64,000 nucleotides of DNA from Paenibacillus spiritus (lineage in GTDB: Bacteria > Bacillota > Bacilli > Paenibacillales > Paenibacillaceae): positions 1 to 64,000 of the forward strand of contig NZ_VYKK01000001.1 in NCBI RefSeq assembly GCF_008710135.1. Reading direction: 5' to 3'. Shown here in pieces: positions 11,391 through 48,290 of the stretch. The notes under the pieces are model-generated. The model was not told where the DNA came from. It worked only from the letters and a program-made list of their open reading frames with translations, and made no database searches. Numbering within the stretch: position 1 is the stretch's first letter; each line of letters starts with the position of its first letter. The translations under genes were made by a program, and so were the position numbers.

Positions 11391-11426
11391 CAAAAAGAAA
11401 GACCGCCGACACGTTGTCGACAGTCT
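11391..11426 (-). terminator. Terminator of the glycosyltransferase operon
   Basis: Read on the minus strand, a 12-bp stem (agactgtcgaca / tgtcggcggtct, three G-T pairs) with a 3-base loop is followed by ttcttttt. It lies 10 bp after the nucleotidyltransferase stop. Confidence 0.85.
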
Positions 11427-11435
11427 GACGCTGCC

Positions 11436-12167
11436 TTACGGCAGCGCATCCTTCAGCTTCTCTCCGGCTTCCCTGAGCGAATCGAACGTGCCGGCATCGC
11501 TCCACCAATCCTTCAATACATCATAGCTCAGCTTGCGGGCCGAAGCATACAGGTTATTGACATCCGTAATTTCCAGCTCGCCCCGCCCCGAGGGCGACAC
11601 CTGCCGGATAAGCCTGAATACCTCGGTGTCATACATATAAATTCCGGTTACGCAGTACCCGCTTCCGGGATGCTCCGGCTTCTCCTCGATTCGGACGATC
11701 CAGGCGGGGTCGCCTGTGTCGAATACCGGAACCCCATAGCGGCGCGGATCATCCACCGGTTTTAGCAGCACCTTGGCGGTTCCCGCGGGCTGCTTCAAAT
11801 ACGCATCCACATAGGGAGCCAGATCATCCTTGAACAGATTGTCTCCCAGCAGCACGACAAAGCGCTCTCCGGGCGGAACAAAATCCCTCGCTGCCTCCAG
11901 CGCCTGTGCGATTCCTCCAGCGGATTCCTGCACCCGGTAGGTGATCGAGACGCCCAGATCCGCCCCGCTGCCGAGAAAATCGGCGTACATCCCGGCCGAC
12001 TGGCGGGTTACCACCAGCAGAATGTCGGTAATGCCTGCCCTGCGCAGCCGGTCGATTCCATAGCAGATCATGGGATACTTCCCGACCGGGAGCAGATGTT
12101 TGTTCAGCATTCGGGTGAGCGGATACAATCGGGTTCCCGTCCCCCCCGCCAGTATGACTCCTCTCAA
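11436..12167 (-). CDS. Sugar-1-phosphate nucleotidyltransferase (RmlA/RfbA-like)
   Basis: This roughly 243-residue protein activates a hexose-1-phosphate to an NDP-sugar. Signature features are GVILAGGTGTRLYPLT at the N-terminus (nucleotide-binding loop), a downstream KHLLPVGKYPM segment, GDNL (metal-binding Asp) and EEKP. It is shorter than housekeeping RmlA (about 290) because the C-terminal extension is missing, as in many pathway-linked homologues. The frame has an ATG at 12200, but a much stronger site (gggaggggag) precedes a TTG at 12167, which begins exactly at the conserved LRGVILAGG, so I prefer TTG. It is last in the operon with three glycosyltransferases and probably supplies their donor. 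The actual sugar cannot be read from the sequence. Confidence 0.9.
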   Translation of the reverse strand: MRGVILAGGTGTRLYPLTRMLNKHLLPVGKYPMICYGIDRLRRAGITDILLVVTRQSAGMYADFLGSGADLGVSITYRVQESAGGIAQALEAARDFVPPGERFVVLLGDNLFKDDLAPYVDAYLKQPAGTAKVLLKPVDDPRRYGVPVFDTGDPAWIVRIEEKPEHPGSGYCVTGIYMYDTEVFRLIRQVSPSGRGELEITDVNNLYASARKLSYDVLKDWWSDAGTFDSLREAGEKLKDALP

Positions 12168-12245
12168 GGCTCTCCCCTCCCACAATAGTCCATCCTGCAT
12201 GCGCGCCTGCCTAATCTTCCGGTTCTTGCGCAGCGACTCCTTCTT

Positions 12246-12980
12246 CTACACAAAATCCAGCGGATCGACGCCCCATTTCTCCTGAAACTGGCGGCGATTG
12301 CGTTCAACCAATTCCTGCCATCCGGCCGGCCGGAGACTTCGGAAGCTGGCGCTCCCCTCGTGATGGACCAGACAATCGCCTGCAATCAGAAGCCGATAGC
12401 CCTTCAACCGGGCACGGTAGGAATAGTCATCATCCTCATAATGCCCCGGTGAAAAACGCTCATCCAGCGGCCCCAGCGCCTCCAGCACCTCGCGCCGGAA
12501 CAGCAGACAGAGGCCGACCAGACGCCGGGTCTCCCGCCACCGCGACGGATCGGGGACATTCCACTTGGCGGCGGCTTCCCTGAATCCGCCCGGTCCGCTG
12601 CAATCGACCGTCACCTGCTGCCGCCCGCTGGCATAATTCGTGACCGGCCCTACCAGACCAATGTCGGGCGCGCTGTACAGCGCCGCCTTCAGATTGGCGA
12701 GCCATCCTGGCGCTACCACCACATCATTGTTAAGCAGCAGCAGCTCATCGCCCGAGGCCAGCGCAAGCCCGTAATTGCAGGCAGCGGGAAATCCCAGATT
12801 GCGGGGAAGCGAAATGAAGGCGATCCGCTCCATCCGGCAGAACTCGCCGGTGCCGTCGTCCGATTCATTGTCGATAACAAGCAGCTCGTGCGGCTCCGGC
12901 GTCGCTTCCCGAATGGAAGCGATGCAGGAACGAAGCAGCGGCAGACCGTTGTAAGTCGGAATGATAATGCTCGTTGTCAT
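12246..12980 (-). CDS. Family 2 glycosyltransferase
   Basis: This 244-residue GT-A enzyme is cytoplasmic, with no membrane helix. It starts MTTSIIIPTYNG (donor-binding beta strand), then has DNESDDGT, NLGFPAACNYG, LLLNNDV (DxD-equivalent metal site) and the acceptor-side GHYEDDDYSYRARLKGY, typical of rhamnosyl- or GlcNAc-type GT2 enzymes. The ATG at 12980 overlaps the stop of the upstream glycosyltransferase by 4 bases (ATGA) and is preceded by ggagg, indicating translational coupling. An upstream in-frame ATG at 13061 lies inside that gene and is unlikely. Acceptor and donor are unknown; the neighbouring repeat protein is the obvious candidate acceptor. Confidence 0.9.
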   Translation of the reverse strand: MTTSIIIPTYNGLPLLRSCIASIREATPEPHELLVIDNESDDGTGEFCRMERIAFISLPRNLGFPAACNYGLALASGDELLLLNNDVVVAPGWLANLKAALYSAPDIGLVGPVTNYASGRQQVTVDCSGPGGFREAAAKWNVPDPSRWRETRRLVGLCLLFRREVLEALGPLDERFSPGHYEDDDYSYRARLKGYRLLIAGDCLVHHEGSASFRSLRPAGWQELVERNRRQFQEKWGVDPLDFV

Positions 12981-14035
12981 TTCGCGTTCCTCCATGCCGC
13001 CACGATCCGGCGGTATGCCGTATTCTGCGGAGACAGATGACCAGACCCGGGGAGCCTGCACCCCGGAGGAAGAGAACGGCCCTCTGCGCCCCGCCGGGCC
13101 AGCAGTTCTCCCAGCGCTTCGGCATGATCGCCGGCAATGAGCTGCTCCATCCGGTTGCCGCTTCCCGTGTTGTCGGCGCCCCGGCGGCGGTTGCGGCGGA
13201 TCACATCGACCGTTCCGGCCGTCTCGACGCGCAGCCCTTCCAGAACGGCGATCGCCTGCGCCCTCGGCGGTACGGCGAGCCCCGAAGGACCGATTGTCTC
13301 CAGAGCCCGCCGCGAGAGAGCATGCGGAACCGCCGTCATCGAAGCGGCGCCGAGATCCCTCCGCCCGAGCGCTTCATTCAACAGCAGCTTGCAGCGCGTC
13401 ACGGTATCTGCGGCGGAGAACGGGGGCAATAGCGGTCCAAGATCGTTGAGGGCGGCGTCTGTCCCTTTGTCTACGGCGGCGGCAAAGGGATACAGGTCCT
13501 CGGCCGCAATCGGAAGATCTCCGTCGAGGAACAGCAGAATGCCGCCCCGGGCGAGCTTCGCTCCGATGCCGCGGCCTACGTCGTGGCCTGCCGCCTCCGG
13601 GCAATGAACGATGATCACTTCCGGGAAGCGGCGTGCGGCTGCGTAGCTGCCGTCCGTGCATCCGTTGAGCACGACGATCAGCTCGTCGGGCTTGAGCCTT
13701 GCGGCTTGGCGGAGTACAGCCGGCAGCGTCTGCTCTTCATTGCGCGCCGTGACAATAACGGACAGGCGCTCCCGCAGCGGCGGGAACGGGCCGCCGGGAG
13801 TAACCCGGGGCGCATAGGCGGCCCGGGGGGCAAGGGCGGCGTTGGCCGCAGCGGACGCACCGGTTCCGTTGCGTCTCGGCCTTCCCAACCCGCCGGGACG
13901 CCGGCCGGAACGGCCGGTCCCCGCCTCTCTCCGTCCCTGTCCCTGTCTCTTGGCGGCGCTGGCCGGAAGCGTCTTGCCCCGACAGGCGAAGCCTGCGCTG
14001 CGTCTCCCCTTCCGGACTTCGCGGCTGCTCTTCAT
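12977..14035 (-). CDS. Family 2 glycosyltransferase with basic low-complexity N-terminus
   Basis: This protein has 352 residues. The first 85 or so are rich in Arg, Gly and Ala without a fold signature. The GT2 domain then starts at LSVIVTARNEEQTLPAVL, with VVLNGCTDGS, GHDVGRGIGAKLA, and FLDGDLPI (the DxD-type metal site is DGD). The C-terminal third shows the GT2 acceptor region without membrane segments. It shares GHDVGR, TAVPHALSR and the general layout with the next gene (14032-14913), so the two are tandem paralogues. Start ATG 14035 overlaps the upstream stop by 4 bases. Possible role: glycosylation of a surface or spore component together with its neighbours. Confidence 0.85.
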   Translation of the reverse strand: MKSSREVRKGRRSAGFACRGKTLPASAAKRQGQGRREAGTGRSGRRPGGLGRPRRNGTGASAAANAALAPRAAYAPRVTPGGPFPPLRERLSVIVTARNEEQTLPAVLRQAARLKPDELIVVLNGCTDGSYAAARRFPEVIIVHCPEAAGHDVGRGIGAKLARGGILLFLDGDLPIAAEDLYPFAAAVDKGTDAALNDLGPLLPPFSAADTVTRCKLLLNEALGRRDLGAASMTAVPHALSRRALETIGPSGLAVPPRAQAIAVLEGLRVETAGTVDVIRRNRRRGADNTGSGNRMEQLIAGDHAEALGELLARRGAEGRSLPPGCRLPGSGHLSPQNTAYRRIVAAWRNAK

Positions 14036-14913
14036 CGCACCATCTCCCTTCGGCGGGCGCCGTCCGTGAAGCCTGCGCGGGGCCCCCGCTCCCGCAGCAG
14101 AAGTTCCATTGCCGCCAAGTGGTCGGCGAAGACCACATCCTGCAGCGGATCGCGCCCCGCGTTCCGGCGCCGGACCGGATTGAGCCGGCCAACGGGCACA
14201 TGCGAAGCCCGGACAACCCGCAGACCGTCCAGCACGGCTCGGGCCAAGGCTGCGGGTGGGACGGCAAGCAGATCGCCAAGCCGCTCCGCCGCTTGCCGGC
14301 TCAGCGCGTGGGGAACTGCCGTCAGGGAGCAGCCTTTCAGATCCGGGCGGCCAAGCAGCGCGTTAAGCCCATGCTTGGCCAGCACGACCGGATGAGGCTG
14401 TCGACGGGAGACCGGCCCGGAATAATCGTTGAGCGCTACGTCTGCCCCCACGGCTACCGCCTCCACGAACGGGCGAAGCCGTGCGGCCGGAATTACCATA
14501 TCCGCGTCAAGAAAAAGCAGAATATCGCCGCTCGCCTCCCTCGCTCCCGCCCGGCGGCCGACATCGTGGCCGAGCGGCTCCGGAAAGTTCAGCACCCGGG
14601 CGCCTGCCGCTGCGGCAATTTTGCCCGTCCCGTCCGAGGAGCCGTTGTCAACGACGATCACTTCGGTCCCCGGAGCAACCGACCGGGCCGCGGCGATGAC
14701 GGCCGCGATGGTCCCGGCCTCATTCATTGCCGGGATGATGACGGATACGGAGGGACCTCCGTCCGCCCGCAGCATCCGAAGCTGCGCGCCTTTCTGAACG
14801 GAACCGCCCGATCTGCCCGTCTTTCGGACTGCCGCTCTCTTCATGCGTCCCCGTGCTCTGCGGCTTCCCGTACCTGCCGGTCTGCCTGGGGATTTTCCGT
14901 TTCTGGATTTCAA
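14032..14913 (-). CDS. Family 2 glycosyltransferase, paralogue of the next gene
   Basis: This protein has about 293 residues. A Lys/Arg/Gly-rich N-terminus is followed by a GT2 domain: SVSVIIPAMNEAGTI, VVDNGSSDGTG, GHDVGRRAGA, and FLDADMVIP (metal-binding DAD). The C-terminal half repeats the paralogue's TAVPHALSR and GLRVVRA-like segments. I prefer a TTG start at 14913: it has gaggtgg six bases upstream, and the resulting N-terminus (LKSRNGK) resembles the paralogue's MKSSREV. ATGs at 14964, 14919 and 14844 are alternatives with poorer signals. Its stop overlaps the next start (ATGA). It is the first gene of the four-gene glycosylation operon. Confidence 0.8.
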   Translation of the reverse strand: MKSRNGKSPGRPAGTGSRRARGRMKRAAVRKTGRSGGSVQKGAQLRMLRADGGPSVSVIIPAMNEAGTIAAVIAAARSVAPGTEVIVVDNGSSDGTGKIAAAAGARVLNFPEPLGHDVGRRAGAREASGDILLFLDADMVIPAARLRPFVEAVAVGADVALNDYSGPVSRRQPHPVVLAKHGLNALLGRPDLKGCSLTAVPHALSRQAAERLGDLLAVPPAALARAVLDGLRVVRASHVPVGRLNPVRRRNAGRDPLQDVVFADHLAAMELLLRERGPRAGFTDGARRREMVR

Positions 14914-15033
14914 GCTCATCCACCTCACTTGCCGGATGCTTCCCTCGTCTTGCAGCACGTTCATTCACAGTCTATGTCCAGAATTCGGCGCGGCCACGGC
15001 CATTGTCCCTGACCGCCCCCGAAACGCAAAGAA

Positions 15034-15069
15034 GAACAGAACCGGGCCGCCGATGGACCGGTTCTGTTC
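15034..15069 (-). terminator. Terminator after the repeat-fibre gene
   Basis: The arms gaacagaacc / ggttctgttc enclose a GC-rich loop; read on the minus strand it is followed by ttcttcttt. It lies 29 bp after the fibre stop, so the glycosyltransferase operon needs its own promoter or readthrough. Confidence 0.8.
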
Positions 15070-15097
15070 CTTGCTTGTGAAACAATGGAGGGTCCAA

Positions 15098-18000
15098 TTA
15101 ATCAAAAGGACGATTCTGTTCCTCTTCAAAAGAGGGCGGGCCGATGGCAATCCAGGACAGCACGCCATAGAAATGCGGCGTATTCTGCAGCCGGACAATC
15201 TGCACGACGGCGCTGCCGCAGTCCCGGCTCTTGAGGGAGGCCTGGAAGAAAGGCTGGTTCGTCATCGCTACCAGCACATAACCGGTATGACCGTAGGGCT
15301 CATCGAACGTGAGGGTAACCTCGGTGTGGACAGCGGTTCCGACGAACATGAAGGCGGTCATTCCGAACTGCTGCAGCGCAGAGCGTCCTCCGCCGCTGTG
15401 AACCGGCACGAACCGGAGATGCTCCGGTTCCACCGACCCGTCGGCCAAGTGGCGGGAGTGTATGGCACCGTCCGCCAGGTGATTCTCTAGCACGCTGCCG
15501 TCTTGTAGATGGGCGGAACCTACGGACGACGCGGACAGATGGCTGCCGCTTACTGCGCCTTCCTGAAGCGCGGACGTTCCAACCGCTCCCGGGGCCAGCT
15601 GCTCCGGCCCGATGCTGCCCAAAGCCAGCTTCTCGCCCGTGACGCTGCCGTCCTCTAGATGAAGTGAACTTACGGACGACGCGGACAGATGGCTGCCACT
15701 TACTGCGCCTTCCTGAAGCGCGGACGCCCCGACCGAGCCCGGAGCCAGCTGCTCCGGTCCCACGCTGCCCGAAGCCAGCTTCTCGCCCGTGACGCTTCCA
15801 TCTTGAAGATGGAAGGAACTTACGGACGACGCGGACAGATGGCTGCCGCTTACTGCGCCTTCCTGAAGCGCGGACGCTCCGACCGAGCCCGGAGCCAGCT
15901 GCTCCGGCCCGACGCTGCCCGTTGCCAGCTTCTCGCCCGTGATGCTTCCATCTTGAAGATGGAAGGAACTTACGGACGACGCGGACAGATGGCTGCCGCT
16001 TACTGCGCCTTCCTGAAGCGCGGATGCTCCGACCGAGCCTGGGGCCAGATGGTTTCCGTCTACCGCGCCCTCCTGAAGCGCGGACGCTCCGACCGAGCCC
16101 GGAGCCAGCTGCTCCGGCCCTACGCTGCCCGATGCCAGCTTCTCGCCCGCGACACTGCCGTCCGGCAATAGCTCGACAAACGTAATGCCAGACGAGAAGT
16201 GGCGCGGCTCCAAGCAGCCGTCTTCCAGCAGATCTGCGGCGCAGAATTCATTTCCCAGATGCGCCAGAGTAATCGTACCCTTTTTAATATGCCGCCCTTC
16301 GATCGTCTCTTCGGCAAGATGGCTGCCATGTACGCTTGAGAGAGCAAGATGGGAGGCGTCCACCGTCTCCGATGCCAATTTCTCTCCCGTGATACTGCCG
16401 TCCGGCAAAAGCTCCGGTCCGCAGACCTCTGCGGCCAAGTGAATGAGGCTTACCGCTCCTTCCTGAATCGCGGACGTTCCGACCGAGCCCGGGGCCAGTT
16501 GCTCCGGCCCCACGCTGCTCGGAGCCAGCTTCTCGCCCGTGACGCTGCCGTCCTCTAGATGAAGAGAACTTACGGATGAAGCGGACAGATGGCTGCCTCC
16601 CACCGCATCCTCCTGAATCGCGGACGTTCCGACCGCCCCCGGGGCCAGTTGCTCCGGCCCCACGCTGCTCGGAGCCAGCTGCTCCGGCCCGACGCTGCTC
16701 GGAGCCAGCTTCTCGCTTGTGATGCTGCCGTCCTCTAGATGAATAGAACTTACGGACGATGCGGACAGATGGCTCCCGTCCACCGCGCCTTTCTGGAGTG
16801 CGGACGTTCCGACCGAGCCTGGGGCCAGCTGCTCCGGCCCGACGCTGCTCGGAGCCAGCTTCTCGCTTGTGATGCTGCCGTCCTCTAGATGAAGAGAACT
16901 TACGGATGAAGCGGACAGATGGCTGCCTTCCACCGCGCCTTCCTGGAGCGCGGACGTTCCGACCGACCCCGGGGCCAGCTGCTCCGGCCCCACGCTGCCT
17001 GAAGCCAGCTGCTTCGGTCCCACGCTGCCCAAGGCCAGCTTCTCGCTTGTGATGCTGCCGTCCTCTAGATGAAGAGAACCTACGGATGAGGCGGACAGAT
17101 GGCTGCCTTCCACCGCACCTTCCTGGAGCGCGAACGTTCCGACCGAGCCCGGGGCCAGTTGCTCCGGCCCGACGCTGCTCGGAGCCAGCTTCTCGCTTGT
17201 GATGCTACCGTCCTCTAGATGAATAGAACTTACGGATGAGGCGGACAGATGGCTCCCGTCCACCGCGCCTTTCTGGAGCGCGGACGTTCCGACCGAGCCT
17301 GGGGCCAGCTGCTCCGAACCAACGCTGCCCGGAGCCAGCTTCTCGCCCGTGACGCTGCCGTCCTCTAGATGAAGAGAACCTACGGATGAGGCGGACAGAT
17401 GCCTGCCTTCCACCGCACCTTCCTGGAGCGCGAACGTTCCGACCGAGCCCGGGGCCAGTTGCTCCGGCCCGACGCTGCCCGGAGCCAGCTTCTCGCCCGT
17501 GACGCTGCCATCTTGAAGATGGAAGGAACCTACGGACGATGCGGACAGATGGCTGCCATCCACCGCGCCTTCCTGGAGCGCGGACGTTCCGACCGAGCCC
17601 GGGGCCAGTTGCTCCGGTCCCACGCTGCCCGAAGCCAGCTTCTCGCCCGTGACGCTGCTGTCGGGAAGCAGTTCCGGCCCGCAGACCTCTGCGGCCAGGT
17701 GCTTCAAGCTCACTGTGCCGTACGCCAGGTGACGGCCTTCTACGGTTCCAGCCGCCAGGTGACGGCCCTCTACGGCTCCAGCCGCCAGATGCTCTCCGCC
17801 AACCGCCTCTTTCGCCAGCTTCTCCGGGCCGACTGCGCCGTCCGCCAGCTTCGCACCGGTAACGGCCAGGTTGCCGAGCTTGTCGGTCACGACGCTCTCC
17901 GGCGACAGCTTCAGCGGCGTGACGGCATAGTCGGACAAATGATGGGGCAGCACCGCTTCGGCTGCCAGATTCCGGCTCTGGACCGCTCCGTCCGCCAGGT

Positions 18001-19810
18001 GGCCGGAAGTCACGGTCCCGGCGCGCAGCGCCTCGGCGCCGATACTGCCCCGGTGCAGGTGCCGCTCTTCGATGATCCCGTCCGCCAGATGTCCGGCGCC
18101 GATCGCTCCCTCCTGAAGAACCCGGCTTCCGACGCTGCCGTCCGCCAAATGCTGCTCCTCGACCGTGCAGAGAGCGATATGCTCTCCGCTGACGGCTCCT
18201 TTGGCGATTGCGGCAGAGCCGACCGCTTCGGCCGCCAGCTTCGGTCCGGTGACGCTGCCGCCTGCCAGCTTCGCCGCAGTGATGCTGCCTTCGGCCAAGT
18301 GTCCGCTTCCGACCGCTCCCGGCGCAAGCTGCCGGGAGCGGACCGACTCGGCGTCCAGGTGGGCAGTCTGCACCGCATCGGCCTGCAAATGGCGGGAACC
18401 CACCGCCTCGGGCGCAATTCGCTCGCCATCGACAGAATCCAGCTGGAGCTGCGCATTGCCTACCGACCCGGCCGCCAGATGCATCGACCGAACCGATGCC
18501 TTCGCCAGATGGCGGGAGCCGATGCTTTCATCGCACAGCTTAGTGCCCGGGATACTCTGATCCGCGATTTTGGACGAAGTGACCGCCTGCTCCACCAGCT
18601 GGGCCGTCCCGACGCTGCTCTCCGCAAGCTGACGGCTGGTAATTCCCCGGGGCGCGATATGGCGGCCGGCGATTTCCCCTTCGGCGATGTGGGCTCCCTG
18701 GACACTCTCCGGCGCCAGATGCTGGCTGCGGATCGCTTCGGCCGCCAGCTTCCCGGCCCCGACCGCTCCGTCCGCCAGATGGCCCCGCTCCACAGCACCG
18801 GCTTGCAGCTGGCCGCTTCCGATGATCCGTCCGGCCAGCTGGCCGCTTCCGATGGCTCCCGGAGCCAGATGCTCCGCCGTAATGACGCCGGTTCCGATAT
18901 GGCGGCCTTCCACCGCCCGATCGGCCAGCTTGGAAGCGTCCACCGCTCCTGCCGAGATCGCGGCTCCTGTAACCGCGCCTCCCGCCAGCTTGGAGGCGTC
19001 GATACTGCCGCCTTCCAGATGACGTCCGACGACCGCTCCGCTTGCAATTTTGTCTCCGGTTACCGAGCCGTCCTCGAGCACTTCCCCTGTAACGACGAAC
19101 CGGCTCAGGTGGCGGCTCTCCAGCGCTCCGTCGGCGATTTTGTCGCCGCCGATGATCCGGTCGGCGAGCTTGTCGGGACCAATGCTTCCGTCTTTCAGCT
19201 TCTCTCCGCCGATGGAACGGTCCAACAGCTTGCCGCCGGATACGCTGGCTTCGGCCAGATGCTCGCCGGTAACCGAGGCGGGCGCGATCTTGGCAGAGGT
19301 CACAGCGTGTTCGGCAATATGGATGCCCTGAACCGCGTAATCCTGAATCCAGGGAGAGCCGATGCTGCCATACTTGAGCTTGGAACCGTCTACGCTCCGG
19401 GGGGCCAGCTTGCTGGCGGTAACTGCAGCGTCCGACAGATCATCCGTGTAGACGAGCGTCCGCCGCCGATCCGGCTGTACGGGCTTGCTGCCTTCGTCTT
19501 CCTCAGGCACTCCTTCACCGGAAGCTGCCGGAGCCGTTCCCGCCGATTCCTCTTCACCTTCTGAAATTCCCGTGTCCGCCGGCTCCAAGTCCTCGCCCGC
19601 ATCCACCTCGATTCCCTCCGGTTCCCCGGTGAACTCCCCTGCAAACGCGGGCGCGGCCGCATGGATCGTCATCTCTTCCGACGCTGCGGCTCCCTCCGTT
19701 ACCTCCGAGCGGCCTTGCTCCAGCAGACACAGCTCCATAATATCGGGGTTATCGACAACGAACAGGCGTTTTGGAGCACGGCCGCTCGGTTTCTTTCTGA
19801 TTTTGCCCAC
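15098..19810 (-). CDS. Giant decapeptide-repeat fibre protein with small C-terminal head (candidate spore/surface appendage)
   Basis: This protein has 1570 residues. A basic start (VGKIRKKPSGRAPKR) is followed by an acidic Ala/Glu-rich stretch to about residue 120. Then come roughly 134 ten-residue units of the form [G/S]-[S/A]-[V/I]-x-x-x-[K/H/Q]-L-x-x, from about base 19440 to 15432. The last roughly 100 residues form a different, non-repeated module with Phe/Trp-rich strands ending near VLSWIAIG, resembling lectin- or phage-tail-tip-like heads. There is no signal peptide, membrane segment or sorting motif. Similar ten-residue repeats occur in phage tail fibres and bacterial surface fibres, where they form trimeric beta structures. 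GTG at 19810 was chosen for AAGGAGG nine bases upstream; the open frame continues to 19879. Neighbouring glycosyltransferases and a divergent YheC/YheD-type gene suggest a glycosylated spore-surface filament; this is inference. Confidence 0.85.
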   Translation of the reverse strand: MGKIRKKPSGRAPKRLFVVDNPDIMELCLLEQGRSEVTEGAAASEEMTIHAAAPAFAGEFTGEPEGIEVDAGEDLEPADTGISEGEEESAGTAPAASGEGVPEEDEGSKPVQPDRRRTLVYTDDLSDAAVTASKLAPRSVDGSKLKYGSIGSPWIQDYAVQGIHIAEHAVTSAKIAPASVTGEHLAEASVSGGKLLDRSIGGEKLKDGSIGPDKLADRIIGGDKIADGALESRHLSRFVVTGEVLEDGSVTGDKIASGAVVGRHLEGGSIDASKLAGGAVTGAAISAGAVDASKLADRAVEGRHIGTGVITAEHLAPGAIGSGQLAGRIIGSGQLQAGAVERGHLADGAVGAGKLAAEAIRSQHLAPESVQGAHIAEGEIAGRHIAPRGITSRQLAESSVGTAQLVEQAVTSSKIADQSIPGTKLCDESIGSRHLAKASVRSMHLAAGSVGNAQLQLDSVDGERIAPEAVGSRHLQADAVQTAHLDAESVRSRQLAPGAVGSGHLAEGSITAAKLAGGSVTGPKLAAEAVGSAAIAKGAVSGEHIALCTVEEQHLADGSVGSRVLQEGAIGAGHLADGIIEERHLHRGSIGAEALRAGTVTSGHLADGAVQSRNLAAEAVLPHHLSDYAVTPLKLSPESVVTDKLGNLAVTGAKLADGAVGPEKLAKEAVGGEHLAAGAVEGRHLAAGTVEGRHLAYGTVSLKHLAAEVCGPELLPDSSVTGEKLASGSVGPEQLAPGSVGTSALQEGAVDGSHLSASSVGSFHLQDGSVTGEKLAPGSVGPEQLAPGSVGTFALQEGAVEGRHLSASSVGSLHLEDGSVTGEKLAPGSVGSEQLAPGSVGTSALQKGAVDGSHLSASSVSSIHLEDGSITSEKLAPSSVGPEQLAPGSVGTFALQEGAVEGSHLSASSVGSLHLEDGSITSEKLALGSVGPKQLASGSVGPEQLAPGSVGTSALQEGAVEGSHLSASSVSSLHLEDGSITSEKLAPSSVGPEQLAPGSVGTSALQKGAVDGSHLSASSVSSIHLEDGSITSEKLAPSSVGPEQLAPSSVGPEQLAPGAVGTSAIQEDAVGGSHLSASSVSSLHLEDGSVTGEKLAPSSVGPEQLAPGSVGTSAIQEGAVSLIHLAAEVCGPELLPDGSITGEKLASETVDASHLALSSVHGSHLAEETIEGRHIKKGTITLAHLGNEFCAADLLEDGCLEPRHFSSGITFVELLPDGSVAGEKLASGSVGPEQLAPGSVGASALQEGAVDGNHLAPGSVGASALQEGAVSGSHLSASSVSSFHLQDGSITGEKLATGSVGPEQLAPGSVGASALQEGAVSGSHLSASSVSSFHLQDGSVTGEKLASGSVGPEQLAPGSVGASALQEGAVSGSHLSASSVSSLHLEDGSVTGEKLALGSIGPEQLAPGAVGTSALQEGAVSGSHLSASSVGSAHLQDGSVLENHLADGAIHSRHLADGSVEPEHLRFVPVHSGGGRSALQQFGMTAFMFVGTAVHTEVTLTFDEPYGHTGYVLVAMTNQPFFQASLKSRDCGSAVVQIVRLQNTPHFYGVLSWIAIGPPSFEEEQNRPFD
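15480..17690 (-). repeat. Higher-order 150-bp tandem repeats in the fibre gene
   Basis: Five 30-bp units form a 150-bp block that recurs with very high identity (near-identical segments begin at 15541, 15691, 15841 and 15991, and again at 17101, 17251, 17401 and 17551). Occasional 30- or 60-bp insertions of extra units occur (around 16020-16080, 16680 and 17010). The 5' part of the gene (17700-19440) keeps the 30-bp period but its units have diverged. Confidence 0.9.
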
Positions 19811-20062
19811 AGGCACTCCCCTCCTTGACGGATGATTGCTTCTCAGGCCATCGTATGCGGGTATATGGGCGAATGACACTATACGGTCCCATAGGCGCCA
19901 TGATCTGCCTTATCCCGGCTGCGAAGGAGGGAGATTCGCGTTCTTCCGGCAAAGGGGCGGCTGCCCCCGCACATTGGTCCACCCCAAAGGCACAGGCGGA
20001 GCATAGAATGAGGGAGAAGGCCGCCTGCCAAGCGCGCCTAAGCATCCGGGAGGGAAGCAGGT

Positions 20063-21142
20063 ATGGAGCAGAATCTCGTCGGAATTCTGATGAATGCCGC
20101 GGTGCACCGGGGCATCCCCCACGGAGCAACGGGGCAGGAATCGCTGCATAATTACGAAGAAGCCGCCGCCGCTTTCGGCCTGGTTCCCTGCTACCTGAAG
20201 CTCGCGGACATTGATATCCCCTCCCGAACATGCCGCGCCTATATTCGCCGGCGCGGCGGATACCGGCGAGAGGAACTGCCGCTCCCCGCCGTTATTCACA
20301 ACCGGGCAATCTATGGACCGGACAGCCGGGGAACGGAGGCTCTGGCCGCAGCCGGAAGCGTCGTCTTTAACCGGAACACGCGCCGGGGCAAGGATGAGAT
20401 TCACCGGCTGCTGGCCGATGTCCCGGCCCTCCGCCGCCATCTTCCGGATACCGAGACCGGGCTCCCGGGGCTCCGCAGACTTATGCTGCGCTGCGGCGAT
20501 ATTATTCTGAAGCCGTGCCGGGGCAGCGTAGGCGAAGGCGTCATGCGCCTGACGCGGAAGGGAAGCGGCTGGGTCTGGACCTACCGGCCGGCGGGAAGCC
20601 GCCGGCTGTCACAGATCGGTTTTAACGAGGAACGGCTGCCGCAGAGACTGGCTGCGCGCCTCGGCGCTGTGCCTTACCTGGCGCAGGAACGCATCCCTCT
20701 GGCCGAGGCGGACGGCAGCCCGTTCGATCTTCGGGTCACGGTGCAGAAGGGCTGGGGCGGAGAATGGGGCGTAACCGGCTTGTTCGCCAAGCTGGCCCCT
20801 CCCGGCAGCTTCATCTCCAACGTAGCCCGGGGAGGCTCAGCCCTTCCGTCCTCCCGGCTGCTGGACCGGGTCTTTCCCGGTCCTCTGGCAGCCCATCTGC
20901 GCATGTCGGCAGGCGCGCTTGCTCTGGAGATTGCCCGGGCGCTGGAGCCGCGCCTGCCGGGTCTTGCAGATCTTGGCCTGGACCTTGGAATCGACCGGAA
21001 CGGACAGCTCTTCTTCATTGAATGCAACGGGCGGGATCAGAGATACGGATTTCTGAAAGCGGGACTTCCGGAGGTCTGGAAGGAGAGTTACCGGCGGCCA
21101 ATGGGCTACGCCCGCTATCTGCTGGAGCAGCGGCAGCCGTGA
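20063..21142 (+). CDS. YheC/YheD-family ATP-grasp protein, spore-coat associated
   Basis: This 359-residue protein matches the YheC/YheD family of ATP-grasp proteins described as endospore coat-associated in Bacillus. The N-terminal part starts VGILMNAAVHRG. Then come a central PAVIHNRAIYG and FNRNTRRGKDEI, and the ATP-grasp core with IILKPCRGSVGEGV (nucleotide-binding Lys and glycine loop), FDLRVTVQKG, and the Mg-binding FFIECNGRDQ near residue 316. ATP-grasp enzymes join a carboxylate to an amine or thiol; the substrate of this family is not settled. ATG 20063 has ggaggg 7 bases upstream. It is divergent from the repeat-fibre gene, which supports a spore-surface role for that locus. Confidence 0.88.
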   Translation: MEQNLVGILMNAAVHRGIPHGATGQESLHNYEEAAAAFGLVPCYLKLADIDIPSRTCRAYIRRRGGYRREELPLPAVIHNRAIYGPDSRGTEALAAAGSVVFNRNTRRGKDEIHRLLADVPALRRHLPDTETGLPGLRRLMLRCGDIILKPCRGSVGEGVMRLTRKGSGWVWTYRPAGSRRLSQIGFNEERLPQRLAARLGAVPYLAQERIPLAEADGSPFDLRVTVQKGWGGEWGVTGLFAKLAPPGSFISNVARGGSALPSSRLLDRVFPGPLAAHLRMSAGALALEIARALEPRLPGLADLGLDLGIDRNGQLFFIECNGRDQRYGFLKAGLPEVWKESYRRPMGYARYLLEQRQP

Positions 21143-21182
21143 ACAGCGGTTATTGATTTGTCTTCCGTTCTATGTCAAGATA

Positions 21183-21227
21183 ATGCAGAGTGGAAGGTTC
21201 CGGGCTCCGGGGCTTTCCACTCTGCAT
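21183..21227. repeat. Long hairpin between the ATP-grasp gene and psd
   Basis: The arms atgcagagtggaag (21183-21196) and its near-perfect complement (21213-21227) enclose a GC-rich loop. There is no T-run on either side, so this is more likely a leader or processing structure in the psd mRNA than a simple terminator. Confidence 0.55.
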
Positions 21228-21245
21228 CATGGAAGGGAGATGGGC

Positions 21246-22037
21246 ATGGTAAAACAATTGCTGCGGCTGATGACCGAGCTCTCCTCGCACCGATGGCTGT
21301 CCCGGTTCATGGGAGCTTGTTCCCACAGCAGAATCAGCCGCTACTTCATTCCCGCCTTCATCCGGCTTTATCAAATTCCGGTCGACGAGGCGGAGAAAGA
21401 TCCCGGCCAGTACCGCTCGCTGAATGAATTCTTCAGCCGGCGGCTTAAGCCGGGCATGCGTCCGGTGGCAGAAGGCGCAGACCGGGTAGCCAGTCCCGTG
21501 GACGCGCAGATCACAGCCATGGGCGAGGTTCACTCCGGCACGATACTGAATGTCAAAGGCCAGGATTACCGGCTGGAGGAGCTGCTCAATCACTCTCCGC
21601 ATCTGGAGCTGTACAAGAGAGGCTTCTTCTTCATCCTGTACCTCAGTCCGACGGATTATCACCGGATTCATGCGCCGATCAGCGGCCGCAAGGTCGAGAG
21701 CGATCATATCCGCGGACGGGCATATCCCGTCAATGAATTCGGCATGAGACATATGAGAGGTGTTCTCAGCCGCAACGAGCGGCTGATTACGTATATTGCC
21801 GGAGCGGGCGGCGAAGCGGCCGTAGTGAAGGTAGGCGCCATGAATGTCAGCAGCATCCGCTACACCGATGAAGAAGCGGACGCCTGGGAGATCGGCGACG
21901 ATCTCGCCTATTTTGAATTCGGCTCTACCGTCGTGCTTCTGTTGGAGAACGGAACCTTCACCCCAAGGCCCGGTCTGACCGCCGGCGTCAAGGTGAAGAT
22001 GGGCGAACTGCTCGGCGCGATGATTCGTCCGGTCTAG
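21246..22037 (+). CDS. psd: Phosphatidylserine decarboxylase
   Basis: This 263-residue pyruvoyl-dependent enzyme turns phosphatidylserine into phosphatidylethanolamine at the membrane. Visible signatures are LSPTDYHRIHAP (residues around 138-149, containing the catalytic His) and EFGSTVVLL near residue 222, where self-cleavage between Gly and Ser makes the beta and alpha chains and the pyruvoyl group. The length fits the compact Psd type. The ATG at 21246 has ggaaggga seven bases upstream; earlier in-frame ATGs (21240, 21153) lack spacing or signal. No phosphatidylserine synthase gene is next to it in this window. Confidence 0.95.
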   Translation: MVKQLLRLMTELSSHRWLSRFMGACSHSRISRYFIPAFIRLYQIPVDEAEKDPGQYRSLNEFFSRRLKPGMRPVAEGADRVASPVDAQITAMGEVHSGTILNVKGQDYRLEELLNHSPHLELYKRGFFFILYLSPTDYHRIHAPISGRKVESDHIRGRAYPVNEFGMRHMRGVLSRNERLITYIAGAGGEAAVVKVGAMNVSSIRYTDEEADAWEIGDDLAYFEFGSTVVLLLENGTFTPRPGLTAGVKVKMGELLGAMIRPV

Positions 22038-31919: not shown

Positions 31920-32801
31920 TTATGCCCTTAAGCGCTTTATATCTTCTCTTGGTGGAGAGCCGAACATTCGGGAATATTCCCGACTAAATTGCGACGGGCT
32001 TTCGTATCCTACTCGAAATGCAATCTCTGTCGCATCTGCCGATTCGGTTAACAGCAATCGGCGTGCTTCCTGAAGTCTCAGCTGTTTCTGATATTGAATT
32101 GGACTCATAGCCGTTACTTCCTTGAAGTGTCGATGTAACGATGACACGCTCATATTGGCAATCCCTGCAAGTTCTTCAATCCGAAGAGAACGGACATAGT
32201 GGCTCGTAATATATTCAATGACTTCGTTTATTTGATGGGCAGAACTGCCTTCTGTTGCAATTTGCCCAAGTGTACTGCCTTGCTCGCCCTGAAGTATACG
32301 GTACAGAATCTCTTTCGTATACAAGGGGGCAAGTACCGCGATATCGTTTGGAGCATCAAGCAAACGAGCCAGCCTAATGACCGTATCCAGCAAAGGCAGG
32401 TTCATTCGACTGACAAACATCCCTCGCTTTGCATTTTCTCCAGGTCGAACTCTTTTTTCTAAATCATGCAAAACCTCTAAGACTTGAGTTGCCGTAAATT
32501 CAAGTTTAAAGCCCAGATAGGGAACTTCAGGGGTCGCTTCAATGACAACGGCAGTAACAGGCAGATGAACTGAAGCAACCAGATAGTCGGCAGGGCTGTA
32601 TCGAAATCGCGCTTCACCTAGCCATACTTCCTTCGACCCTTGAACAACCACACAGAAGGATGGCTTGTATACGCCGGGGTTAGGTACGGAAGCATTGGAA
32701 TCGCGCATGAGATATAAGGAAGGAACCGCGGTTTCATGTACACCGTCCTGCTTTGCATAACGCACGATAATTTGAACAAGCTCTGCCTGCAGCTGCGACA
32801 T
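31920..32801 (-). CDS. AraC-family transcriptional regulator (AraC_N sensor type)
   Basis: This 293-residue protein has an N-terminal sensor of the AraC_N type (PSLYLMRDSNASVPNPGVYKP, VVVQGSKEVWLGE, YLVASVHLPV) and two C-terminal helix-turn-helix motifs (IEELAGIANMSVSSLHRHFK; ATEIAFRVGYESPSQFSREY). Regulators of this type are often paired with an oxidoreductase gene, and here an aldo/keto reductase is divergent 173 bp away. The ribosome binding site is aaggagagg. Base composition is visibly more A+T-rich than the flanking genes, as in the reductase, suggesting the pair came in together. Confidence 0.92.
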   Translation of the reverse strand: MSQLQAELVQIIVRYAKQDGVHETAVPSLYLMRDSNASVPNPGVYKPSFCVVVQGSKEVWLGEARFRYSPADYLVASVHLPVTAVVIEATPEVPYLGFKLEFTATQVLEVLHDLEKRVRPGENAKRGMFVSRMNLPLLDTVIRLARLLDAPNDIAVLAPLYTKEILYRILQGEQGSTLGQIATEGSSAHQINEVIEYITSHYVRSLRIEELAGIANMSVSSLHRHFKEVTAMSPIQYQKQLRLQEARRLLLTESADATEIAFRVGYESPSQFSREYSRMFGSPPREDIKRLRA

Positions 32802-32959
32802 TGGGACCCTCTCCTTTGATCTGTTAATAATATGGATTATAGACGATAAACGTTAGTTACATAAGTTGCCGTGAGAGAATTAGGCAATGATTTGATCCGA
32901 TTGAGATATCGGCCGCTTTGTCTTATGCCGCATAATGGAGGATATGAAGAAGCTCATAA

Positions 32960-33826
<867 letters not shown>

Positions 33827-33902
33827 TTAAGATTAACGAAGAAATTTGCGTCATTTATGCCGTTAAAATAAAGGATTCCAGTTTTTGTTGCGCTTATGAG
33901 CA

Positions 33903-33945
33903 GGGAGCAGCAGGGAGCGGTTATCGCTCCCTGCTGCTCCCTCTG
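33903..33945 (+). terminator. Long hairpin terminator between convergent genes
   Basis: This is a perfect 17-bp stem, arms 33903-33919 and 33925-33941, with a 5-base loop. T tracts on either side are weak, but it stands between the reductase and ecsB stops. Confidence 0.7.
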
Positions 33946-33955
33946 TCTTCCCGCC

Positions 33956-35176
33956 TTACAAATCTTCTTCATTCGGCTGCCGAAGCCTGCGGTCCAGACG
34001 ATAACGCGTCAGCCCTGCGACGGCGGCGCCTCCCGCCAGGGTCAGCAGGGAAGCGCCCAGTCCGTCTGCGCCGTTCGCCAGCAGCGGCAGCCACAGCAGC
34101 ACAGCCCAGATGAGATGCTGGCCGAATACCAGCGAGACGGTGCTCCGGCGGCGGCTTCCCTCCGGCAGCGGATACACCGTCAGCCAGAACGACTCCTCAT
34201 GCGGCTTGGCCACGCCGGAGAGCTGGACGCCGATGACGAACAGGAAGAAGAGATAGAGCACGGGCGCGCCCCAGCCGCCCCGCGTCCAGTAGACCAGCAG
34301 CAGCGTGAGTACGCCGATGCGCGTCACCATGCCGAGCGTCTCGCCCCGGGCCAGCGTCTTGGTCAGCAGGAACCGGTACGCGGTCTCCTTCTTCCACGGC
34401 AATCCCGCTCCCCAGCGGGACAGCCAGCGGCGGCGGTATACTTTCTGGCCGCGTCCCGGCACATCCACGAACCAGCCCAGCAGCAGCAGGGCGCGTTCGG
34501 CCTGGGCTTTCTCGGTGGCGATCAGCCGGTCCCACGCCACCCTGTGGCGGGCCGGCACAGCCAGGGCTGCGAGATACGCGGCTGCCAGCAGGCCGGAGAA
34601 GAGCAGACCCCGCAGCGCAGGCTGCCACAGCCAGGCGGCGGCGATCAGCAGGCCGACTGCCCAGCGAAGCAGCCGGTACCCGGCCGCTGCCGGCGGCGAG
34701 ATCAGGTTCAGTTCTCTCCAGCAGCCAAAAGAGGAGAGCACTTTCACGCCCAGCAGCAGCAGCAAGGTGGCTGCCAGCGCCTTCGGCTCGGCGGCGCTTC
34801 GGATATAGAGCGGCCACAGCAGCAGAAGCAGCAGGAGCAGCCGAAGGCTTTTCCAGACCGTTCCGCTGACCCAGGCCGGAGCAAAGTACGCCTTCATCCG
34901 GTGTCCCTGGGGCAGCAGAAAGATCGCATCCGGCTCCTGCAAATAGGTTCGGAAGCTGCTGTGCACCGCCGCCGGAGCCAGTACGGCCAGCATGATCGGA
35001 AGAATCGGCAGCCCTTCGGGCACATCCTGCAGCAGCGCCGTGTACCAGGCGGCAAACGCAATCAGGCCAAAAGCGAACACCATGGCGACGCCGCTCTGGA
35101 TAATATAACCGACATAAGGCATAATTCCGCCCATCGCCTGGCTGCGTCTTCGGCCGCGCAGTTCGCGCAGATCCAT
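33956..35176 (-). CDS. ecsB: ABC transporter permease EcsB
   Basis: This 406-residue membrane protein has many hydrophobic segments (about 20-45, 53-70, 112-130, 140-160, 175-215, 290-330, 350-390). It matches the EcsB family by size and by its position right after an EcsA-like ATPase. Ecs transporters affect protein secretion, intramembrane proteolysis and competence in Bacillus; the transported substrate is unknown. The ATG is one base after the ecsA stop, with gggaggg inside the ecsA end, so the two are translated together. The C-terminus is short and charged. Confidence 0.87.
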   Translation of the reverse strand: MDLRELRGRRRSQAMGGIMPYVGYIIQSGVAMVFAFGLIAFAAWYTALLQDVPEGLPILPIMLAVLAPAAVHSSFRTYLQEPDAIFLLPQGHRMKAYFAPAWVSGTVWKSLRLLLLLLLLWPLYIRSAAEPKALAATLLLLLGVKVLSSFGCWRELNLISPPAAAGYRLLRWAVGLLIAAAWLWQPALRGLLFSGLLAAAYLAALAVPARHRVAWDRLIATEKAQAERALLLLGWFVDVPGRGQKVYRRRWLSRWGAGLPWKKETAYRFLLTKTLARGETLGMVTRIGVLTLLLVYWTRGGWGAPVLYLFFLFVIGVQLSGVAKPHEESFWLTVYPLPEGSRRRSTVSLVFGQHLIWAVLLWLPLLANGADGLGASLLTLAGGAAVAGLTRYRLDRRLRQPNEEDL

Positions 35177-45563: not shown

Positions 45564-45669
45564 CGTCCATTCCTCCCTGATCCCTATGCTGTAACGCATG
45601 GTGCAGATAATATGGAGATTATATCATAAGGGGGCAGCCAATTCGAAAGCCGGAGCCGGAGGTGCCATA

Positions 45670-46185
45670 ATGACTACAATTACACGCGTGTTCCGAACAA
45701 GGAAACGGTACCTTCTATTCCTCGTGCTCGCTTGTCTGGCCTATGAGGTCTTCCAAGGTTATAGGTACACCCGCTCCTATTACACGCAGGAGCATATTAA
45801 ATGGGCAATGGTAATCTTACGGGACAATAAACCGGGAATCGGGTCGAGCTCTCAATCGATTACCACAACCGACGAAGAGGAACTTGCCGATATCGTCAAG
45901 CTCCTGAAGAAGAGAACGCCGATTCGACTATGGCCTGACTTGGGGCCTGTTAAGTCTTATACCCAAGAATTTCAGGAATTGCATATTGAGCTTCTGTCGG
46001 ATAATGAGGTAACGCTGGATTATTATCTTGATTCTTTTGGAGGCATCCAGGTTGTACAAGGATTCGACGATGACGCATGGCATGGGATTCCTTGGGGCGG
46101 AAGCCGGAAGTAATGGTTCAACGAGCTGAAGAGTTTCTTCGAAGCAAAGAAAGAGAACGGGCTGTGGACGTATCAGGAGCATTGA
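45670..46185 (+). pseudogene. Small membrane-anchored protein gene interrupted by one in-frame stop
   Basis: The frame starts at ATG 45670 (ggaggtg upstream) and encodes an N-terminal membrane helix (RYLLFLVLACLAYEVF) and a soluble part. It aligns along its whole length with the protein at 47790-48290: YYxQEHIK, SQSIT, LKKRTxI, KxYTQxF, IELxSD. Codon 148 is TAA (46111-46113) where the paralogue has AAA (Lys, in GSRKKWFNEL). After it the match resumes (WFNEL, then KKENGLW) to a TGA at 46183-46185. So a single A-to-T change truncates the last 23 residues. The shorter 147-residue form may still be made. Function unknown. Confidence 0.8.
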
Positions 46186-46873
46186 AGCAAGACATCACCG
46201 ATACATGGCAATGCCGTCCATGAAAAACCCCCCCCGGGTAGTATTTCATTCGTCAGTTCAAACGGTCAAGCGCTTCCTTGATCGTCGGGCTTAAGCTATA
46301 GGTTTTGATAATCGTCTGGATGTGCAGCCACGGTTTAGCTCTCGTGCAATGGTAAGAGCAGGACGACCTAGCGCTTTACCGTTCCATCGGCACGACCACA
46401 CTAACCAGTGCAGCGCCTCTAGTTGTCCTCATTCATTTGTGCTAAGTAAGAGGGGAGTAGTTCATCTTGGATCTCCTTGTGAAAACTGATTGGTAAACCC
46501 ATTTCACACGAAACCAGCATGGTCTATTACACTTCATATTACATTACAATCCATCATTTTTAAAAAAATATAGAAATTCATGGATAATTATGGTATAAAG
46601 GTTGTAGGTGGTCACTAAACTTATAATAAATTTGTTAATTCCTAGTTATCATCTGTTGCTATTTTGAAATAAGAAAGGGGGACGCGATACATTAAATTTG
46701 TTGAATGTATTATATTGACCATCATATTCCAACGTTATCACTTATGATTGGAAGCGCTTTAAATCTTCAAAGGATCCAGAAAAGTTCAAAATCATTTATT
46801 ATTTCCCAAAATCTTTTTGCTTTTATTGAAGCGTCTTATGTATTAAAATAAATAATCTGATGGGAGAATTTTC
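46186..46873. other. A+T-rich gene-poor stretch with decayed coding remnants
   Basis: No intact gene is seen in these roughly 690 bases. On the minus strand between 46519 and 46252 there are pieces of reading frames in different phases: a 33-codon frame ending AQMNEDN at 46418, another containing GRPALTIAREL, and a third ending KEALDRLN at 46252. Together they look like one gene broken by frameshifts, though the family was not recognised. The right part (46550-46873) is strongly A+T-rich and holds the promoter region of the secreted protein gene (tatggtataaag near 46590). Confidence 0.5.
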
Positions 46874-47788
46874 ATGAAAAAAACTTTATCTTTGTTATTA
46901 TCTTGCACATTATTTATATTTTCAGGAGTGAATATTTCTTTTGCCTCCTCACTTACAGATTCTAATAAAGAACTGAATACTCAACAAGCTAATATTGAAC
47001 GTTCAATCACAAGCCAATCTAAATTACCTCTGCAAAAAATAAAAATCAATCCTCTTAACAGTAAAGAGGTTGAGGGAACTATCAATAATTATCAGTTACA
47101 GCCAGAAACAGTGAAAGATATCCGTGAATTCGCTAAAAAGGTTCAAAATGGAGAAATAACTGCTGCTACTATGAATATTTATGTACCTGCTGTGAGTCAA
47201 GAAGTTACTTTAAATTCACTTGCTTCAACTCTATCAACATCTTCTAACAGAACTTACACGGGTTATAATAATAAAACTTATTATGAAGAAACAGTAACTT
47301 ATAGTGGTATAAGTAGTGAGAAAGAAATAAATAAAACAACAAAAAGCAACTGGATAAATTACCTTAACGGTACTATAACTGAAGTTGCTAAATTTTTCGT
47401 GGATAAGGGATTGAATGCTATAACTTTAGGCTATTGGGATATAGCAAAAATATTCACTTCTGGTATCCCTGGTGCAGTTTCTAATTATACTGAAGTTACA
47501 CACACAGCTAAACTAATTCAAACTGTTGTTAAGAAAAACACCTACTTAGTAATGGATAACCAGTATTACTTTGGTTATAAGGGAGAATATTCAAATACAA
47601 ATTTCCAAAATTTTGTTAATATACCGGGATATGCTCAAGTTAACGGTTTAATCACTGAAGTCAAGGCAGCTTATACACCAAGTTTTTATGAGGGTGATAA
47701 AAAAGCTTGGCTGAACTATGTAAATGGGGGATATGTTGAAAATTTTAATAATTATTCTTATGGAAATACCTCATTCCCTGCAATGTAA
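46874..47788 (+). CDS. Secreted protein of unknown family, A+T-rich
   Basis: This 304-residue protein has a clear signal peptide (MKKTLSLLLSCTLFIFSGVNIS, cleavage likely after SFA). The mature part has a charged N-terminal region (about 30-95), a Ser/Thr/Tyr-rich section, a central stretch with amphipathic or hydrophobic helices (TEVAKFFVDKGLNAITLG, DIAKIFTSGIPGAVS; residues about 178-207) and a Tyr/Asn-rich C-terminus. There are no cysteines after the signal peptide and no known enzyme motif. Codon use is far more A+T-rich than nearly everything else in the window. Its stop is one base before the start of the membrane partner gene. A large unmodified bacteriocin or other secreted effector is possible, but that is a guess. 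Confidence 0.8.
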   Translation: MKKTLSLLLSCTLFIFSGVNISFASSLTDSNKELNTQQANIERSITSQSKLPLQKIKINPLNSKEVEGTINNYQLQPETVKDIREFAKKVQNGEITAATMNIYVPAVSQEVTLNSLASTLSTSSNRTYTGYNNKTYYEETVTYSGISSEKEINKTTKSNWINYLNGTITEVAKFFVDKGLNAITLGYWDIAKIFTSGIPGAVSNYTEVTHTAKLIQTVVKKNTYLVMDNQYYFGYKGEYSNTNFQNFVNIPGYAQVNGLITEVKAAYTPSFYEGDKKAWLNYVNGGYVENFNNYSYGNTSFPAM

Positions 47789-47789
47789 C

Positions 47790-48290
47790 ATGAAAAAAGG
47801 AATAATCATCCTCTTGGGTACATTAATTCTCGGAATATTATCTTATGTTACCTATGCGGGTTATAATTACGTCCCTCTATACTATAAACAAGAGCATATA
47901 AAGGGCGTAATTATACAGCTTACTGACAATATACCAGGCGCAGGAAATGGATCAATCTCCCAAAGCATTACCTCAACCGCTCCAAAGGAAATTGCTGAGG
48001 TGGTTCGGGTATTAAAAAAGAGAACTCTCATAAAAACATTTTCTGACATGGCTTCTCCCAAAATATATACCCAAAAGTTTAGTGAAGTTAAAATCGAACT
48101 TATATCTGATACAGGTTTAACTTTAGAATATCGGATCAATTCTCTAAAAGAAGTCAAAATTAAGAAGGGTTTTTCAAATAAAGCATCTAACGTAATTGTT
48201 TTAGACGGAAGCCGGAAGAAATGGTTTAATGAGCTAGTAGCATTGTTTGAAGAAAAGAAGCAGAACCGGTTATGGATTTATAAAAAGTAA
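47790..48290 (+). CDS. Small membrane-anchored partner protein, intact paralogue of the broken gene
   Basis: This 166-residue protein has an N-terminal membrane helix (KKGIIILLGTLILGILSYVTYAGY) and a soluble basic/acidic domain (YYKQEHIK, SQSIT, VLKKRT, IYTQKF, GSRKKWFNELVALFEEKK), most likely outside the cell. Its ATG is one base after the stop of the secreted protein gene and has no clear ribosome binding site of its own, so it probably depends on translation of that gene. This arrangement is common for an effector with its immunity or maturation partner. A strong terminator follows. No family was recognised. Confidence 0.8.
   Translation: MKKGIIILLGTLILGILSYVTYAGYNYVPLYYKQEHIKGVIIQLTDNIPGAGNGSISQSITSTAPKEIAEVVRVLKKRTLIKTFSDMASPKIYTQKFSEVKIELISDTGLTLEYRINSLKEVKIKKGFSNKASNVIVLDGSRKKWFNELVALFEEKKQNRLWIYKK

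Follow-up and report, generated by a model that had tools for sequence, protein, structure and literature searches.

What kind of structure is built from a protein made almost wholly of ten-residue repeats, and at what stage of its life would a bacterium need it, are the questions raised by a reverse-strand gene in a 64,000-nucleotide stretch of the Paenibacillus spiritus genome (contig NZ_VYKK01000001.1, positions 1 to 64,000; hereafter the window). A first-pass annotation, made from the nucleotide sequence without database searches, had taken this gene, which we call the fibre gene, for a non-collagen spore appendage made in the mother cell, accompanied by its own glycosylation genes. Our analysis indicates that the gene encodes a genuine fibre-like protein that is widespread and linked to sporulation, and that the domain forming its head has been catalogued before, as WIAG-tail. 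The reading that we prefer, at a probability of roughly 0.65 and largely from comparison of sequences, is that of a fibre of the spore surface, made in the mother cell and probably trimeric; it would be a non-collagen analogue of BclA, produced late in sporulation and timed with a spore glycosylation operon.

The open reading frame (ORF) extends over 15098-19879 on the reverse strand (1593 codons), and the GTG at 19810 is its likely start, judging from the ribosome site and from the N-termini of relatives. Read from that codon, the earlier description of 1570 residues with about 134 decapeptides is borne out by ORF, period-10 and unit-count analysis: residue identity reaches 0.33 at a lag of 10 but lies between 0.05 and 0.11 at the remaining lags in the range 2-19, and at most 137 non-overlapping hydrophobic-x4-hydrophobic-x4 units can be placed (134 begin within residues 100-1480), compared with a mean of 50 and a maximum of 62 in 200 shuffles. 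Much of the C-terminal half is organised further into 50-residue super-units (150-bp repeats; lag-50 identity 0.42). The parts follow one another as a basic N-terminal motif, an acidic linker (about 120 non-repeat residues in all precede the repeats), a YTDDL repeat start, the decapeptides and the head. N-termini resembling LYYVDNPN..EL are common to many relatives, a loose EL.[WML][LIA]-type pattern occurs there in 59 of 82 long proteins, and a YTDD[LI]-type repeat start is found in 63 of the same 82; the basic motif is a candidate for the part that would anchor the fibre on the spore. No part of the protein is strongly hydrophobic (the highest Kyte-Doolittle mean over 19 residues is 1.15), and hence, by that measure only, it shows no sign of a signal peptide, in agreement with the earlier description. 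A 721-residue open frame lies antisense to the stalk (17399-19564, forward strand) and is most likely a by-product of the stalk repeat.

The last ~100 residues are non-repetitive, as first described, and contain a head of about 80 residues that matches NCBIfam WIAG-tail (NF012201) with an E-value of 8.5e-29 over 79 of 80 model positions, scoring 99.5 bits (106 bits in a genome search) against a cut-off of 33 bits. The tryptophan of WIAG is invariant in all 97 aligned heads. Confidence in the structural model of the head is fairly high for residues 91-170 (block means 70-88, compared with 61.5 for the model as a whole, whose predicted template modelling score is 0.45); the model has six strands, as in the six-stranded sandwich fold of H-type lectins. 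Comparison with structure databases, which the first-pass annotation had proposed as a check, returned H-type-lectin and pyocin-fibre folds: VIA-align placed the model with LKA1 tailspike (Z 10.4), Helix aspersa agglutinin (4q56; Z 9.8, root-mean-square deviation (rmsd) 2.2 over 80 residues), discoidin II (Z 9.8) and the R1 pyocin fibre (Z 9.3), values above, but not far above, the Z of 7 to 8 that VIA-align gives as typical for models with no clear match. Foldseek gave SLL-2 as its best match (2.1e-4, the only one below 0.001), and in a viral structure library H-type-lectin and tail-fibre predictions ranked first. H-type-lectin-like heads lead the fold search, and BclA is absent among the matches listed, which by itself shows nothing. 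The head is therefore predicted to have an H-type-lectin/pyocin-fibre fold (Z 9-10).

Among the PHROG profiles, those of phage tail-fibre families match the stalk, PHROG 892 at 1.8e-205, a score inflated by the repeats. Its fold is harder to model. An AlphaFold2 monomer of 217 stalk residues gave short turns at a mean predicted local distance difference test (pLDDT) of 41, which fits a chain that needs partners and proves nothing. Could the stalk instead be a monomeric right-handed beta helix of the pentapeptide type, with no part in a trimer? A hydrophobic residue does recur about every five positions, and there are weak matches to HetL (4.4e-8, far below cut-off), to designed pentapeptide-type beta1 proteins (2.6e-5) and to IcmE; yet the AlphaFold2 model contains no beta helix, pentapeptide helices are usually predicted well, and the tail-fibre profiles score far higher, so that we think this arrangement quite improbable. 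Nor is the stalk fold settled by cyanophage gp28, whose distal fibre is reported as not resolved (PMC10575957).

The distribution of the WIAG gene supports the spore reading. Genus, family and class here are those of the window (Paenibacillus, Paenibacillaceae, Bacilli), and the genome samples overlap. WIAG is present in 58 of the 61 genus genomes, in 260 of 295 of the family (usually as a single copy) and, in the samples of order and class, in 105 of 119 and 66 of 250, respectively; the 14 control genomes, B. subtilis among them, have none, and all seven relatives from named genomes are Paenibacillus. SpoIVA, our sporulation marker, was searched in the same class and family draws and found in 179 of 250 class genomes (177 over cut-off) and 279 of 295 family genomes. 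All 66 WIAG-positive class genomes carry it (P 3e-12, ignoring relatedness), and the 16 family genomes that lack SpoIVA, all of one genus, also lack WIAG. The gene tracks sporulation and is not required for it, since 113 of the 179 SpoIVA-positive genomes in the class and 19 of the 279 in the family do without WIAG. Two genera stand out: g8, in which all 16 sampled genomes have neither gene, looks like a lineage that lost sporulation, and g17, to which 14 of the 19 SpoIVA-only genomes of the family belong, probably consists of spore formers that lost the fibre gene and offers a natural comparison for microscopy.

Timing was approached through the upstream regions of 96 loci (95 fetched plus the window), in 46 of which, many from close relatives, the start could be set from the N-terminal motif. 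A GTG[AT]C-N17-CATA box precedes the fibre gene in 34 of these 46 regions (dinucleotide shuffles: mean 0.01, maximum 1), and when spacings from 10 to 24 were tried, a single match appeared outside N17, at 22. The sigma-K promoter consensus is of the AC-N17-CATA type (CATANNNTA); this strict form occurs in 21 of 46 (shuffle mean 0.79, maximum 4), and the box of the window, GTGTC-N17-CATACGATG, carries TC in place of AC. By group, the box is found in 16 of 17 own-genus regions, 12 of 14 from other genera and 6 of 6 named-Paenibacillus regions. For calibration in the same genus we used yabG, a sigma-K gene (28 of 30 fetched loci, two truncated ones being left out), and spoIVA, a sigma-E gene (30 loci): AC-N17-CATA occurs upstream of 12 of 28 yabG and 0 of 30 spoIVA genes, and the sigma-E-like ATATT-N12-14-CATA upstream of 1 of 28 and 5 of 30, respectively. 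The latter pattern is present in none of the 46 fibre upstreams, which speaks against sigma-E control of the fibre gene.

The glycosyltransferase (GT) genes downstream have a related signal. In 40 loci with a match of at least 150 bits to the first of them, GTT[AG]C-N16-CATA precedes that gene in 31 (shuffle mean 0.10, maximum 1); the window's own box (GCCGTGGC-N16-CATAGACTG) is a GTGGC variant outside the 31. With this promoter-like box and a terminator-like hairpin (for which a pattern scan finds a shorter stem) between them, the fibre gene and the GT operon look like separate, similarly timed transcription units. Upstream of YheC/D genes of the own-genus type, CATA..[AT]T occurs in 11 of 20 regions (shuffle mean 2.8, maximum 7; CATAGAATG in the window) with no -35 above chance in these 20, and no such boxes rise above chance upstream of the nucleotidyltransferase or decarboxylase genes. 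The window contains no Rfam family.

Since the stalk matches tail-fibre families and the predicted head fold resembles pyocin fibres and tailspikes, the gene might be thought the tail fibre of a prophage or phage-derived particle. We consider this very improbable: a prophage setting in relatives, which the first-pass annotation had named as a refutation of its reading, was looked for, and instead the locus is syntenic across the genus, in a chromosomal neighbourhood where YheC/D, GT2 and decarboxylase genes are conserved. In the family the gene is close to universal and usually single-copy, and neither 50,697 records of phages and 72,556 of plasmids nor an IMG/VR scan yielded a match to the head, which is likewise unmatched among PHROG profiles.

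Pfam confirms the neighbours named in the first-pass annotation, namely three GT2 glycosyltransferase genes (GTa, GTb and GTc), a nucleotidyltransferase gene and a divergent YheC/YheD-type gene. The 4-bp overlaps reported between the GT2 genes stand for GTa/GTb (14032-14035), and for GTb/GTc provided that GTc starts at the ATG at 12980. We compared neighbourhoods in 87 grouped loci, leaving out L002-L008, L119 and L147, and defined the full arrangement as a divergent YheC/D gene within 2 kb together with at least three GT2 genes and a nucleotidyltransferase; collecting loci in this way, as had been suggested, recovers the full set in 17 of the 21 loci of the genus. When the limit is widened to 8 kb and orientation is ignored, YheC/D is found at 19 of 21 loci in the genus, 7 of 20 in other genera of the family, 6 of 19 in other families of the order and 7 of 20 in other orders; for a sugar-enzyme gene (GT2, GT4, nucleotidyltransferase, epimerase, GT-D or Glyco_trans_1_2 type) at up to the same distance the figures are 19 of 21, 13 of 20, 13 of 19 and 8 of 20, respectively. 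Linkage of the fibre gene to its neighbours is strong in the genus and fades with distance. With 6 to 16 YheC/D-type matches per genome (31 genus genomes searched), proximity within 2 kb by chance would, as a rough estimate, be expected at about one per cent. According to the accessible parts of the sources, YheD builds a shell around B. subtilis spores (PMC7911427), and yheC and yheD are members of the sigma-E regulon of B. subtilis (PMC517825); as sigma-E genes up-regulated by SpoIIID, they make a partner that fits the spore reading. The phosphatidylserine decarboxylase gene beyond YheC/D is probably housekeeping.

A second WIAG protein, short (~190-250 aa) and with few repeats, occurs in some genomes of the genus (L140-L146), with YheC/D and GT2 genes near in 7 of 7 loci examined and the full set in 3 of 7; the glycosylation set seems to go with the WIAG head even where the long stalk is missing. 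Three families of small proteins (~101-114 aa) recur at 27, 23 and 20 of the 96 loci, respectively, encoded on the strand of the WIAG gene and downstream from it, and their representatives (L086:4701-5009, L065:6439-6783, L096:7759-8064) match no NCBIfam or Pfam family.

A late spore protein need not face outwards, and the same evidence can be read as an inner spore-coat structural protein under sigma-K, with the GT operon making an independent spore polysaccharide. The promoter and SpoIVA evidence would suit any late spore protein, a terminator-like hairpin and distinct boxes divide the fibre gene from the GT operon, and beyond the genus GT2 genes are missing from the surroundings of many WIAG loci; a length that varies while the C-terminal head is conserved, repeats like those of tail fibres and a fold of the receptor-head type, on the other hand, suit an exposed fibre, and we regard the inner-coat alternative as unlikely. 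The earlier claim of a dedicated glycosylation set fares in the same divided way: the GT2/nucleotidyltransferase linkage is conserved, the operon has its own box behind a hairpin, and many distant WIAG genes have no GT2 gene nearby. That the operon glycosylates the fibre itself is thus plausible at most. As to the appendage, SpoIVA co-occurrence, the sigma-K-type boxes in the family, the linkage, the non-collagen stalk and the lack of any sign of an export signal agree with it, and location on the spore is among the parts that we infer.

Several results weigh against a spore-surface fibre. Outside the genus the full arrangement becomes scarce (other genera, 5 of 20 loci; other families, 1 of 19; other orders, 0 of 20); many SpoIVA-positive genomes, as counted above, lack the gene; and the fibre box is missing from all 9 upstream regions scored in other families of the order, which confines the promoter evidence to the family. 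GTGWC-N16-18-CATANNATR matches the window's genome once (19849-19879) and its reversed control twice, so the rarity of the pattern carries no weight by itself. The stalk model failed, and a Pfam scan of seven heads, with E-values up to 10, found no match to the H-type lectin family.

Taken as a spore-surface fibre, the protein could be assembled as follows. Sigma-K RNA polymerase would transcribe the gene from its dedicated promoter, as comparison within the family predicts, and the product, showing no sign of an export signal, would stay in the mother-cell cytosol. Chains may, by analogy, trimerise through the C-terminal WIAG head, with the decapeptides forming an extended rod of variable length and the basic N-terminal motif binding the forming coat or exosporium, head outwards. 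The co-timed operon of three GT2 genes and a nucleotidyltransferase gene would, to judge from linkage and promoter type, make sugars and attach them to the spore surface, the fibre itself being a plausible target, and the head might, more speculatively, mediate adhesion, perhaps to glycans. A tentative and rather unlikely extension is that an ancestor of these spore formers adopted a phage-type receptor-binding fibre as a sigma-K spore appendage, with a head that recognises glycans, perhaps those made on the spore by the GT operon; a lectin-sugar pair of their own making would then let spores clump or stick. The features discussed are listed in Table 1.

Table 1. Positions of the fibre gene, its parts, its neighbours and candidate signals in the window
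Feature	Position	Strand	Basis or remark
Fibre gene	15098..19810	-	1570 aa from GTG at 19810; longest ORF starts 19879
N-terminal basic motif ending ...LFVVDNPDIMELCLLE, candidate spore anchor	19712..19810	-	similar N-termini in relatives
Decapeptide stalk from YTDDL motif	15374..19450	-	repeat analysis; YTDD[LI] start; PHROG tail-fibre matches
WIAG-tail head domain, predicted H-type-lectin/pyocin-fibre fold	15140..15376	-	NCBIfam match and fold search
Sigma-K-type box of fibre gene	19849..19879	-	comparison of upstream regions
Terminator-like hairpin after fibre gene	15026..15074	-	13-bp stem, z -3.59; tail moderately U-rich
Promoter-like box of GT operon	14968..15000	-	variant of GCCGTT[AG]C-N16-CATA
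GT2 glycosyltransferase a (GTa)	14032..14964	-	PF00535; ATG at 14919 is a likely start
GT2 glycosyltransferase b (GTb)	12977..14035	-	PF00535
GT2 glycosyltransferase c (GTc)	12246..12980	-	PF00535; longest ORF starts 13061
RmlA-like sugar-1-phosphate nucleotidyltransferase	11436..12200	-	PF00483; below rmlA equivalog cut-off
Terminator-like site after nucleotidyltransferase	11400..11426	-	pattern scan
-10-like box of YheC/D gene	20002..20010	+	no clear -35
YheC/D-type ATP-grasp gene, divergent	20063..21142	+	PF14398, 8.3e-59
Phosphatidylserine decarboxylase, conserved neighbour	21153..22037	+	profile matches

Elsewhere in the window, a low-GC stretch at 45598-48290 (33-38% at 46-48 kb) holds an ORF with a signal-peptide-like start (46874-47788), flanked by two ORFs (45598-46113 and 47724-48290) that look like relatives of each other. 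A second low-GC stretch (32000-34000, ~45%) contains, by eye, an AraC-like regulator and an aldo/keto-reductase-like gene.

How does this protein compare with systems already described? The first-pass annotation, which knew of no system with this gene set, had missed that the gene is close to universal across the family and that the head is catalogued: WIAG-tail proteins (NF012201, known here as a named domain model only) share the same domain above cut-off. Its suggestion of novelty holds in that we found no described function in the open-licence literature searched, where WIAG-tail appears only in the algal-virus gene table of one unrelated paper; the fibre protein is not named in the accessible parts of PMC11952670, PMC10470788 and PMC7439481.

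Stalk profiles (PHROG 892 and others) and a similar head fold are shared with phage decapeptide tail fibres and R-pyocin fibres, from which the fibre gene differs in being chromosomal and sporulation-linked, with a head that matches no phage collection or PHROG. To the H-type lectins (Helix agglutinins, the C-terminal domain of discoidin) the head is close in predicted fold (Z 9.4-9.8, rmsd 2.2-2.9) but not in Pfam family. Spore surface fibres of another kind, F-ENA-2a, are reported in the same bacterial family, with no tip-fibrillum candidate in the accessible part of the preprint (PMC11952670). F-ENA fibres are built of small DUF4183 subunits, a domain that the Pfam scan did not find in the fibre protein, and DUF4183 is far rarer in the genus than WIAG (15 against 58 of 61 genomes), making it unlikely that the fibre is an F-ENA tip protein. 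The window's genome has two DUF4183 matches in one open frame (G000 contig C30, 14929-15543), so both kinds of spore fibre may be present.

The closest parallel in design is BclA, the nap glycoprotein of the B. cereus group, described in the accessible part of PMC10470788 as having an attachment region, a repeat stalk and a trimerising head. The fibre protein likewise has an N-terminal attachment region, presumptively, a repeat stalk of variable length and a C-terminal head, and BclA too has linked sugar enzymes in some species. The period of the fibre protein is 10 and not 3, the Pfam scan finds no collagen family, and its head is predicted to be H-type-lectin-like where that of BclA is a jelly roll, with no shared sequence found. 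The fibre protein appears to be a common but little-studied spore-surface part in Paenibacillus and its relatives, for whose spore surface our analysis provides a gene together with its promoter and a head predicted to be adhesive. The best-known spore filaments, BclA and its relatives, are collagen-like; the present locus points to another, unrelated type of spore fibre, found in most of the genomes sampled from a large family of spore formers and in part of its class.

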